64,000 nucleotides of DNA, taken from positions 367,832-431,831 of the forward strand of contig JANQRA010000002.1 of the NCBI GenBank assembly GCA_028284765.1, in the 5' to 3' direction. The translations under genes were made by a program, and so were the position numbers. Shown in pieces: positions 34,147 to 45,521 of this stretch. The DNA is from Acidimicrobiia bacterium (GTDB lineage: Bacteria > Actinomycetota > Acidimicrobiia > Spongiisociales > ZC4RG35). The number at the start of each line of letters is the position of its first letter. Position 1 is the stretch's first letter. The notes below the pieces were generated by a model. It was not told where the DNA came from. It saw only the letters and a list, made by a program, of their open reading frames with translations, and ran no database searches.

Positions 34147-34518
34147 GTGGACCTACTGCTGTGGATGGGCAAGATGTACGCCCGGTTCGTTGCAATAGCC
34201 ATTGCGCTGATCGGGGTCCGTCTCCTTGCGGTGAACATCCCGGCACGCGAGTTCGACTGGTGGGTCTGGATCTGGATACTGGCTGCCGGAGCGGCTGGAA
34301 TCATCGGAGGGGTCCTTTATCTCTTCAGCCTTGACGGGCCTATGAAATACCGCACCAAGGGGGCACGAGGCCTGGGGTGGGTGCTGATGCTGTTCTCGGC
34401 GGCGTTGCCGTCGTCTCTGACTCTGATGACCGTGCCTTTGGTGGCGGTCCTAATCCCGGGGCTCTTCAAAGGTCCGTGGAACAAGGCAGGCGACGGATCC
34501 GAGGTCACATTCTCGTGA
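34147..34518 (+). CDS. small integral membrane protein
   Basis: A 123-residue protein with three predicted helices: YARFVAIAIALIGVRLLAV, WVWIWILAAGAAGIIGGVLYLF (in two parts of one hydrophobic segment) and WVLMLFSAALPSSLTLMTVPLVAVLIPG. I do not recognise a family. The GTG start at 34147 lies 9 nt after the preceding stop, behind a TAGGGT hexamer. Its 3' end overlaps the convergent DNA glycosylase by 14 nt. The N-terminal half and the conserved-looking LIPGLFKGPWNKAG tail would be the best search handles. Confidence 0.65.
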   Translation: MDLLLWMGKMYARFVAIAIALIGVRLLAVNIPAREFDWWVWIWILAAGAAGIIGGVLYLFSLDGPMKYRTKGARGLGWVLMLFSAALPSSLTLMTVPLVAVLIPGLFKGPWNKAGDGSEVTFS

Positions 34519-35380
34519 TGTTGCGCGGTGCGAGCCGTGGACCGAACTTCGGCTCGTGACCAAGTAGGTGCAGGAGACGCACCGCCCTCCCCCGCTGCGG
34601 TCGATATGGCTCCAACAGTTCCAGCATCTCTTCATCGGTGCCACGGTCCTTCCCGGTGAGGTGGTGGACGACCGTGTGTTTGATGTGAAAGTCGCCTACC
34701 GCGACTTGGTCCGGGTCACCGTGGGAGACGTCGAGAGTGCTTGCCGACGTCCATACCGAGATGCCGCGGAACAACTCCAGGGTTTTCGTGGCTTCTTTCG
34801 GATCGCGCTCGGCTAGTCCATTGATCAGCTCGCTCTTGGCAGCGACCGCACGCAGAACCTCGGCCCGGCGCTTTTCCAGATGGAGTGGGTGGTACTCGTA
34901 GTAAGGGGCCGCAGCCATCCGTTCGGGATCGGGTGGGAGACGAAGTCGCTCATTCGGCCCGGGTGCCGGGTCTCCGAATGCTCGGGTGAGCCCGCGGATG
35001 GCCCTCGCCGCCTCGGTACCTGTGACTTTCTGCCCGCAGATGGCAACGACGAGGGAGTCGAATACGAGATCGGTCCTCCCGAAACGGCGCCCTGGATTTC
35101 GACGATGGAGCTCAGCGACAACGCCCTCCGGCGGATCGAAGGTCGTGGGATCGTCATCCAAACCTGCGATTGCCGCCAAGCGTTCGAGAAGCCACACCGC
35201 ACCTTCACCCCAAGCCTCACCGATCACGTTCTCTCGGGTTCGTTTGATTCGAAGCGATCCCGGACCGTCTGGGGTCCGTGCGGGGAGCCACCAGCCGTCG
35301 TCGGCGAATCGCCCATGAAGGGGGCGGAGCGTTGCTCGAAGGTCGAGTGCCCCTTCGATCTCGATGACTCTTCGCTCCAT
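34505..35380 (-). CDS. HhH-GPD superfamily DNA glycosylase (3-methyladenine type)
   Basis: A 291-residue base-excision repair enzyme related to AlkA. It has an N-terminal AlkA_N-like region (LDLRATLRPLHGRFADDGWW), the helical core with VVAICGQKVTGTEAARAI, where Q is the conserved glutamine of the IxxQQ motif, and FRGISVWTSASTLDV at the helix-hairpin-helix position. The catalytic Asp is expected in VAVGDFHIKH. The start ATG (35378–35380) lies 6 nt behind CATAAT. It is one of two AlkA-like genes in this window; the other is fused to a SodX-like protease domain. Confidence 0.85.
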   Translation of the reverse strand: MERRVIEIEGALDLRATLRPLHGRFADDGWWLPARTPDGPGSLRIKRTRENVIGEAWGEGAVWLLERLAAIAGLDDDPTTFDPPEGVVAELHRRNPGRRFGRTDLVFDSLVVAICGQKVTGTEAARAIRGLTRAFGDPAPGPNERLRLPPDPERMAAAPYYEYHPLHLEKRRAEVLRAVAAKSELINGLAERDPKEATKTLELFRGISVWTSASTLDVSHGDPDQVAVGDFHIKHTVVHHLTGKDRGTDEEMLELLEPYRPQRGRAVRLLHLLGHEPKFGPRLAPRNITRM

Positions 35381-43917: not shown

Positions 43918-44160
43918 ATGGGCCGAACGACACGAATCGCCTCAGGGACCGGACTGGTGATACTTGGAATTGTCTTGCTTCCCTTGCCCGGACCCGGATG
44001 GGTGACCATCGGGGCTGGTCTCGCAGTCCTCAGCCGAGACGTCGAGTGGGCAGGACGCACCCTCGATTGGCTCAAGGCGCGCCTGCCTTCTCAACTTGTT
44101 GAACCAGAAAGCCCAACCGCTGACCACGTCGAAGACGAAGCGGATCGAGCCGGGGGCTAG
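43918..44160 (+). CDS. PGPGW-motif small membrane protein (TIGR02611-like)
   Basis: An 80-residue protein with one or two hydrophobic segments: SGTGLVILGIVLLPLPGPGW and VTIGAGLAVLSRDVEWAGRT. The PLPGPGW motif and the following LAVLSRDVEWA are the signature of a conserved actinobacterial family of small membrane proteins of unknown role. The C-terminus is acidic and probably cytoplasmic. The ATG is preceded by a TCTAAT hexamer 5 nt upstream. Its stop overlaps the convergent sodN stop by 4 nt. Confidence 0.82.
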   Translation: MGRTTRIASGTGLVILGIVLLPLPGPGWVTIGAGLAVLSRDVEWAGRTLDWLKARLPSQLVEPESPTADHVEDEADRAGG

Positions 44161-44564
44161 GCGGGCGGGTAGACCCCCATGCCCTTGGCCTTCTCCGTCT
44201 GCCAGAAGATGTCCGCGATCTCGTCGATCAGGTCGCACAGCTTCTGACCTTCTGCAGGGTCAGCTGACTTCTTGGCGTCACCAGCCTGGTGGATTGCTCG
44301 CCAGAAGAGATCGTCGAGGTTGGCGAATTCCTTGCGATGATCTGCAGTGAAGAAGTCTGCCCAGAGCACCATTAGATGATGCTTCACCAACTCGGCTTGC
44401 TGCTCTTTCAGGCCGACGGCCCGGGCCTTGAAATGCTCGTCGTCTGATTCCTGCGCCTTCTGTGCGATCTTCATGACCGAAATGGCTTCGATCTTCGCCT
44501 GAGCGGGGTCATAGACGCCGCAGTAGAGATCGCAGTGAGCGTGTGCAACCGTTACCTGTCGCAT
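44157..44564 (-). CDS. sodN: nickel superoxide dismutase with altered Ni hook
   Basis: Disproportionates superoxide using a Ni centre bound by the N-terminal hook. The 135-residue precursor has a nine-residue propeptide (MRQVTVAHA) before HCDLYCGVYDPAQAKIEA, followed by the four-helix body (KEQQAELVKHHLMVLWADFF, IADIFWQTEKAKG). Ligands His1, Cys2 and Cys6 are kept, and Tyr9 too. The hook Pro of HCDLPCG is replaced by Tyr (codon TAC at 44523–44525), which needs two base changes from CCN. AAAGGAG lies 6 nt before the ATG. It is divergent from the protease-like gene that probably removes the propeptide. Confidence 0.94.
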   Translation of the reverse strand: MRQVTVAHAHCDLYCGVYDPAQAKIEAISVMKIAQKAQESDDEHFKARAVGLKEQQAELVKHHLMVLWADFFTADHRKEFANLDDLFWRAIHQAGDAKKSADPAEGQKLCDLIDEIADIFWQTEKAKGMGVYPPA

Positions 44565-44615
44565 GGGGTTCTCCTTTAAGTCTTTGCCTTGCCACGACCA
44601 TACTGACCCCTGCCG

Positions 44616-45521
44616 ATGTCAATGAAACGCTTCGCGGTCGCCGGCCATTCGATGACACCGGCCCTCCAACCCGGTCAAGAACTGGTGGCGTCTAACTCAC
44701 TTCGACCCGAGGTGGGTGACATCGTTGCTTTTCCTGACCCTGGCCGATCGGACCGGTGGCTCATCAAGCGCCTGATCACAGAAGATGGCTCGGTGGGCTC
44801 CGACAACCAGGCCGACTCCTCGAGAGATTCGAGGGAGTTCGGCCCCATCGATCTCACAACTGTCTTCACCGAAGTGAAACGGCTCGACGCGGCCCGGTTC
44901 GTCGAGGCTGCATCGCTGCTGGCCGAAGAGGACGAAGCGATCACCGCCATCATCGACAAATGGGGGATGCCGGACTTCTGGGCACGTCGTCCAGGCTTTG
45001 AGACTCTGGTCCTGCTGATTCTCGAACAGCAGGTGTCCCTCGAATCTGGGGCCGCCATGTATCGGAGGCTCAAGACTCTCCTTGGATCGGTAGATCCCCG
45101 GGCTGTTCTCAGGGTGGGCGAGGCGCGAATGCGGTCGATAGGAGTCACCCGGCAGAAATCCCGCTACTTGACGCGACTCTCGGAGGCAGTTGTTGGGGGT
45201 GATCTCGATCTAGGGGCGCTAGAGGACGCTTCGGTAGAAGTTGCTCGAGAGACCCTCACATCGCTCAAGGGAATTGGAGCGTGGACAGCAGACGCCTACC
45301 TCTTGACGGCCTCGCGGAGACCCGATATGTGGCCAATCGGCGATCGCGCACTGCAAGTCGGGGCTGGAGAAGCCGTGGGCATGGACCGACCCGCGACTGA
45401 AGACGAGCTGACGATTCTCGGCGAGCCCTGGCGACCGGTCCGGGCAGTTGCGGCCCGCTTGATTTGGCACAACTACCTCTGTGAGCGAGCACGAATCGAG
45501 CCTGCCGACCCGACCCTCTGA
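44616..45521 (+). CDS. fusion of a SodX-like S26 maturation protease and an AlkA-type DNA glycosylase
   Basis: A single 301-residue frame. Residues 1–85 are an S26-type nickel-SOD maturation protease domain: RFAVAGHSMTPALQPGQEL with nucleophile Ser12, general base Lys51 in WLIKRLI, and VGSDNQADSSRDSREFGPID. From about residue 93 an HhH-GPD DNA glycosylase follows: GFETLVLLILEQQVSLESG with the IxxQQ motif, helix-hairpin-helix LKGIGAWTADAYLL and the catalytic Asp243 in WPIGDRALQ. Both domains keep their catalytic residues. It is divergent from sodN by 51 bp, the normal place of sodX. The start may be Met1 or Met3. No frame break is visible at the junction. Confidence 0.88.
   Translation: MSMKRFAVAGHSMTPALQPGQELVASNSLRPEVGDIVAFPDPGRSDRWLIKRLITEDGSVGSDNQADSSRDSREFGPIDLTTVFTEVKRLDAARFVEAASLLAEEDEAITAIIDKWGMPDFWARRPGFETLVLLILEQQVSLESGAAMYRRLKTLLGSVDPRAVLRVGEARMRSIGVTRQKSRYLTRLSEAVVGGDLDLGALEDASVEVARETLTSLKGIGAWTADAYLLTASRRPDMWPIGDRALQVGAGEAVGMDRPATEDELTILGEPWRPVRAVAARLIWHNYLCERARIEPADPTL

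Follow-up and report, generated by a model that had tools for sequence, protein, structure and literature searches.

Does a single gene of an Acidimicrobiia bacterium join the protease that matures nickel superoxide dismutase (NiSOD) to a DNA glycosylase? If so, how did the two come together, and does each half still do its work? The gene lies at positions 44616..45521 (+ strand) of a 64,000-nucleotide stretch of DNA, here called the window. It starts with ATG and runs in one frame for 301 codons to a TGA stop; an earlier note on this DNA had described an uninterrupted frame here, and the open reading frame is exactly as it said.

A fused gene in one family

Within this one frame, a Pfam search places both Peptidase_S26 (PF10502) and HhH-GPD (PF00730) above their cut-offs. 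The SodX-like protease domain covers residues 1-90 (44616..44885, +) and the glycosylase domain residues 91-301 (44886..45518, +). The two meet without a linker at residues 89-91, R-L-D (about 44880..44888, +), inside the range of 44870-44895 in which the junction had been predicted. Looking for the same domain order elsewhere, as the earlier note had proposed, we found the fusion in 15 of the 34 sampled genomes of the family, spread over nine genera (the window's own genome counted). The window protein is 50-59% identical to the copies of other genera. In one genome (G024) the fused gene is cut by a contig end and its remainder lies on another contig; the full-length alignment holds 14 copies. 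All 14 share one junction, in which Leu90-Asp91 is invariant. Also invariant in the protease half are S12, K51, S62-D63 and D71-S72, and in the glycosylase half E137-Q138-Q139, G219, G221 and D243, along with many other positions. The catalytic residues are therefore conserved across the aligned fused copies, in agreement with the claim that both active sites look intact.

Could the frame be an artefact of assembly or sequencing that joins two genes? The window's assembly is in 23 contigs, and relatives with unfused versions exist, a circumstance that the earlier note had linked to an assembly error. Such relatives are real, but the conclusion does not follow: 14 other independent assemblies carry the same fusion and form one clade, and the junction is invariant, with purifying selection across it. 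A fusion common to 15 genomes of a single clade excludes chance, a frameshift or an assembly error, and we give the artefact a negligible probability. The fusion is genuine. A separate glycosylase translated from an internal start was considered and rejected as well: near the junction, no in-frame start codon is conserved throughout the clade and none has a consistent Shine-Dalgarno sequence.

How widespread is the fusion? When 395 genomes of the class were scanned with a profile of the fused protein, full-length matches came from the window's family only; among 396 genomes of the phylum there was no full-length match outside that family. Both scans are samples, and rare independent fusions elsewhere are possible. 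A search of contigs with the single fusion protein returned no matches, while a search with the alignment recovered the fused loci, mostly from metagenome-assembled genomes of Acidimicrobiia/Actinobacteria. Other members of the family have sodX beside sodN, the NiSOD gene; their glycosylase gene lies on a different contig, or they lack a close glycosylase homologue. A search of the 396 phylum genomes with TIGR02754, the SodX equivalog model, yielded 30 loci; sodN stands beside sodX in all of them, and a related glycosylase near sodX in none. The claim that sodX encodes only the protease in known NiSOD loci thus agrees with the other NiSOD loci that we examined, in which it is a stand-alone gene, unlike the window copy, which continues in frame into an HhH-GPD domain at its C-terminus. 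In the open-licence literature we found no paper describing the fusion, only a dipeptidyl peptidase III (DPP III)-AlkD analogue (see below), and neither that literature nor the sampled genomes held a SodX or AlkA-type enzyme with a comparable second catalytic domain. As far as these searches reach, the domain architecture is a previously undescribed variant of SodX.

The protease half and its NiSOD neighbour

The sodN gene (44157..44564, - strand) is well recognized (PF09055, E-value 4e-36; TIGR02753, 122 bits against a cut-off of 90). Its product has a nine-residue leader, MRQVTVAHA, before the HCDLYCGVYDP hook. The start codons of sodN and the fusion are separated by a spacer of 51 bp (44565..44615). 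As had been claimed, the protease domain occupies the normal position of sodX: sodN is the divergent neighbour in the window and in all 15 fused genomes, and the same placement is seen at the 30 SodX loci of the phylum.

As a side observation, the sodN genes of the window's order (loci L001-L061) encode a hook of the form HCDL(Y/F/M)CG as opposed to HCDLPCG, and an aromatic residue or Met stands in place of Pro5 in every one examined. Elsewhere in the phylum, 20 of 30 sodN loci keep the Pro (17 HCDLPCG, 3 HCDIPCG) and 10 have Met.

Is the N-terminal half a SodX? PF10502 matches residues 4-55 with 37.8 bits (cut-off 22.9, E-value 2e-9). The predicted nucleophile Ser12 (codon 44649..44651, +) lies in the motif hSM-P-L-PG and the predicted general base Lys51 (44766..44768, +) in W-(L/M)-(V/I)-K-R. 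Both had been placed correctly by the earlier note and neither varies in the 14 fused homologues. A stretch resembling S26 box E, SDN...DSR, follows at residues 62-74 (44799..44837, +), and contains the invariant pairs at 62-63 and 71-72. Matches to a full-length structural model in the PDB were taken up by the glycosylase half, and the protease half was therefore modelled and searched alone. This AF2 model (pLDDT 92.9) has signal peptidases as its best structural matches (4n31 and 3s04, Z 10.9; Z about 10-11 over 84-89 residues for signal peptidase structures in general), consistent with a Ser/Lys dyad in an S26 fold. TIGR02754 aligns to residues 8-85, nearly the whole of its 90 positions. 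The score of 32.2 bits is about half the curated cut-off of 63.25, which is an annotation threshold and not a biological feature; the other fused domains (40-49 bits) and the unfused, sodN-linked relatives of the family (39-44 bits) all fall below it too.

The N-terminal half might instead be another S26/S24 protease of the LexA/UmuD kind, and the whole protein a protease-glycosylase under DNA-damage control. The low TIGR02754 score would fit such a protein, as would the slightly higher score of the signal peptidase I model (TIGR02227), the partnership with a DNA-repair enzyme, and the presence of lambda repressor, UmuD' and LexA C-terminal domains among the fold matches (Z about 9). These S24 domains rank below the signal peptidases, though the differences in Z are small, and PF00717 stays under its cut-off on the window protein. 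Above all, sodN is the divergent neighbour in every fused genome, just where sodX usually stands throughout the phylum, and the window's genome has no other SodX candidate. A LexA/UmuD-like protease is accordingly improbable. The fold, the nearest models and the conserved position divergent from sodN agree with the SodX-like half that had been proposed.

Like SodX as defined by TIGR02754, this half has the dyad and fold, the divergent sodN, a length close to the 90-position model and no membrane helix; it differs in that its C-terminus is joined to a DNA glycosylase and that its score lies below the curated cut-off. A Kyte-Doolittle window of 19 residues predicts no helix in the 15 fused proteins (highest mean 0.83 in the first 90 residues, 1.46 overall), which speaks against membrane anchoring of the fusion protein. 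The absence of a helix had been claimed and taken to suit a DNA enzyme. The first part stands; the second is weak, because in unfused SodX relatives, too, only a few residues precede the catalytic Ser, and the missing helix is therefore not a consequence of the fusion or a special adaptation to it.

Does the cell need this protease? A Pfam search that detected Fe/Mn-SOD in 12 of 14 control genomes found none in the 18 genomes tested with fused or adjacent genes; CuZn-SOD was not found in the window's genome. NiSOD thus appears to be the only SOD of these genomes. SodX is needed for active NiSOD (PMC3919588, PMC8346466), and the only SodX-like protein in the window's genome is the fusion itself. 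The protease half must therefore probably work, and judged by sequence we consider it very likely that it does. Within the fused set, the SodX domain of the window has diverged furthest (a long branch in the SodX+SodN tree) and has a deletion of about 10 residues before the SDN motif in the 14-copy alignment, and could for this reason be degenerating in the window's lineage. Degeneration of either half throughout the clade is excluded by the invariant active sites and low dN/dS.

The spacer between the two genes contains a conserved element, GACCATACT (44596..44604, +), whose only exact copy within the window is this one. Variants of it (GACCATACT/GACCATACC/GACAATACT) are present in all 15 fused loci and in several unfused relatives. 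It resembles a promoter and could serve as a -10 element in one direction or the other. If such a divergent promoter is indeed shared, the NiSOD locus would control the repair domain as well, and this would be the most economical reason for the persistence of the fusion.

The glycosylase half

The C-terminal half belongs to the AlkA/Mag-type HhH-GPD glycosylases, in line with the AlkA-like domain first reported. PF00730 matches residues 134-274 (43.5 bits, cut-off 26.2, E-value 5e-11), and profile searches of the PDB find 2h56 (E-value 2e-31) and 2yg8, which is DR2584 (1e-24). The closest folds are Mag2 and Mag1 of S. pombe (Z 23.5 and 21.7), DR2584 of D. radiodurans (21.1) and 2h56 of B. halodurans (19.8), and the best sequence matches are monofunctional 3-methyladenine glycosylases. 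Gln138-Gln139 of the EQQ motif (45027..45032, +) and Asp243 (45342..45344, +) are invariant in fused and unfused homologues alike, and the helix-hairpin-helix turn, G219-I-G221 (45270..45278, +), keeps both glycines. In the profile alignments Asp243 falls on the catalytic Asp of both 2h56 and 2yg8, in keeping with its earlier designation as the catalytic residue. The fold of 2h56, DR2584 and Mag1/Mag2 extends over residues of about 90-292 (198-203 residues aligned), and these proteins also share the EQQ motif, the HhH turn, the catalytic Asp and the lack of an AlkA N-terminal domain. Unlike them, the fusion has a protease domain in place of their short N-terminal extension. In the best AF2 model of the whole protein, built on an alignment of 14 rows, the pLDDT is 89.9 and the pTM 0.83. 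Across the five models the pLDDT varies between 61.7 and 89.9, and the relative placement of the two domains is therefore tentative.

Is this half still an enzyme? A related case invites caution. The DPP III of Porphyromonas gingivalis combines an M49 peptidase and an AlkD-like ARM domain in one chain; the glycosylase-like domain did not complement and showed no alkylation-repair activity, and the fusion arose from neighbouring genes that are still adjacent and separate in sister genera (PMC5708649). The two proteins have much in common: an N-terminal peptidase, a C-terminal DNA-glycosylase-like domain, restriction to one lineage and separate neighbouring genes in sister lineages. They differ in that the peptidase and glycosylase folds are unrelated and that DPP III has no SOD context. 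By this precedent, the protease half of the window protein would work while the glycosylase half had become a non-catalytic module binding DNA or a partner. Its best fold match, Mag2, is described as a glycosylase homologue and not as a proven glycosylase, and the fused copies have acidic residues of their own (E97, E105, E143). The cell may also have little need of the activity, since most of the fused and related genomes, the window's included, have TagI and MPG homologues that cover alkylation repair, and need, with a second AlkA-like protein present as well, is no argument for catalysis. On the other side stand Asp243, Q138/Q139 and the HhH glycines, all unchanged, and a dN/dS like that of an ordinary constrained enzyme. 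The fused domains retain 35 of the 39 columns conserved in unfused homologues, which argues for catalysis. Going by this conservation, the glycosylase half is likely catalytic, and its conversion into a binding module unlikely.

The second AlkA-like HhH glycosylase homologue is encoded about 10 kb from the fusion (34505-35380, - strand; 291 amino acids) and scores 36.6 bits against the DNA-3-methyladenine glycosylase 2 model, below the cut-off.

Origin of the fusion and its possible benefit

How did the two genes become one? In three relatives (G007, G009 and G021) sodX and the glycosylase gene are adjacent but unfused (loci L018, L021 and L017, respectively), and the stop codon of sodX overlaps the start codon of the glycosylase gene as ATGA, in different frames. 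These pairs resemble the fusion in their orthologous domains, equal order and orientation and divergence from sodN; they differ in having two overlapping frames and a SodX that is about 25-35 residues longer (fused halves have about 90-107 residues, unfused relatives 123-132). At the junction, 'RLDxxTF' of the fused copies lines up with 'SLDTTSF' of the unfused L018 glycosylase, which stands a few residues from that protein's N-terminus; this indicates that a few residues were lost from each partner's end and that no linker was added.

Phylogenetic trees support a single event. In the glycosylase tree the fused domains group together in a single clade (ultrafast bootstrap 100, SH-aLRT 99), with the adjacent pairs closest to it and the separate genes outside, some inner branches being weak. 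The fused sequences also form one clade in the tree of linked SodX and SodN (support 100/97), in which the adjacent-pair genomes group with G003/G019. Support for the fused clade from SodX alone is 64/90, from a sequence too short to decide. An ATGA-overlapping adjacent pair is the likely precursor state, and a series from separate to overlapping to fused genes is the simplest reading of the origin. Between close relatives the SodX half has a pairwise dN/dS of 0.08-0.20 and the glycosylase half one of 0.13-0.27, and both domains are thus under purifying selection (about 0.1-0.3). With 15 genomes of nine genera in a single clade and low dN/dS, the fusion is old, single in origin and maintained.

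Separately, the glycosylases of Auraticoccus, a Nitriliruptorales bacterium and Salsipaludibacter (L078, L082, L105) branch within the family clade, beside the fused and the adjacent forms; this placement suggests transfer of the glycosylase between actinobacterial lineages.

What, then, is the fusion for? We think it probable that it is a bifunctional protein, a SodX maturase and an AlkA/Mag-type glycosylase, that arose once from the overlapping pair; from sequence, the dual function is well supported. The N-terminal domain would be the cell's NiSOD maturation protease, a soluble S26-type peptidase with Ser12/Lys51 that removes the short leader of SodN and leaves a hook, beginning with His1-Cys, able to bind nickel. 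The C-terminal domain would be a monofunctional glycosylase that flips out damaged, probably alkylated, bases and excises them through Asp243. The overlapping pair, divergent from sodN, would have been joined once, losing the stop codon of sodX and a few residues from each partner. The two domains probably have separate substrates, and the likeliest benefit would be that one promoter in the sodN spacer yields a SOD maturase and a repair enzyme at a fixed ratio of 1:1. The two activities, the substrate, the co-regulation with sodN and the adaptive reason are what we infer for this protein.

Does the union need a benefit at all? The stop codon of an overlapping pair may simply have been lost, leaving two enzymes in one chain with no functional link. 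A single small change of frame would turn the ATGA pair of the sister genomes into a fusion, the glycosylase gene is not near sodX at the loci examined outside the family, and the fused copies have neither a linker nor a specific accessory domain. Against neutrality, the fusion has been kept over nine divergent genera, and no reversal to two genes was seen within the fused clade. We give the neutral account a little less than an even chance. It is compatible with dual activity and overlaps with our preferred explanation, removing only the adaptive coupling.

It is tempting to go further. The glycosylase half might tether the maturase to DNA, so that NiSOD activation takes place next to the nucleoid, or the protease might be modulated when lesions are bound. 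We regard such coupling as unlikely; if true, the fusion would be a device coupling superoxide defence to base excision repair and not two enzymes sharing a chain. For the bifunctional protein that we favor, we as yet only infer that NiSOD maturation is physically linked to DNA repair; superoxide defence may be tied mechanistically to DNA repair, as the earlier note had suggested for alkylated or oxidised bases.

As the fusion gene may be named from either half, its annotation calls for care. Separate, overlapping and fused stages all survive in living relatives. Together with the conservation of the fusion and with NiSOD as the sole SOD detected, these surviving intermediates make it directly testable whether base excision repair is linked to the maturation of an antioxidant enzyme.
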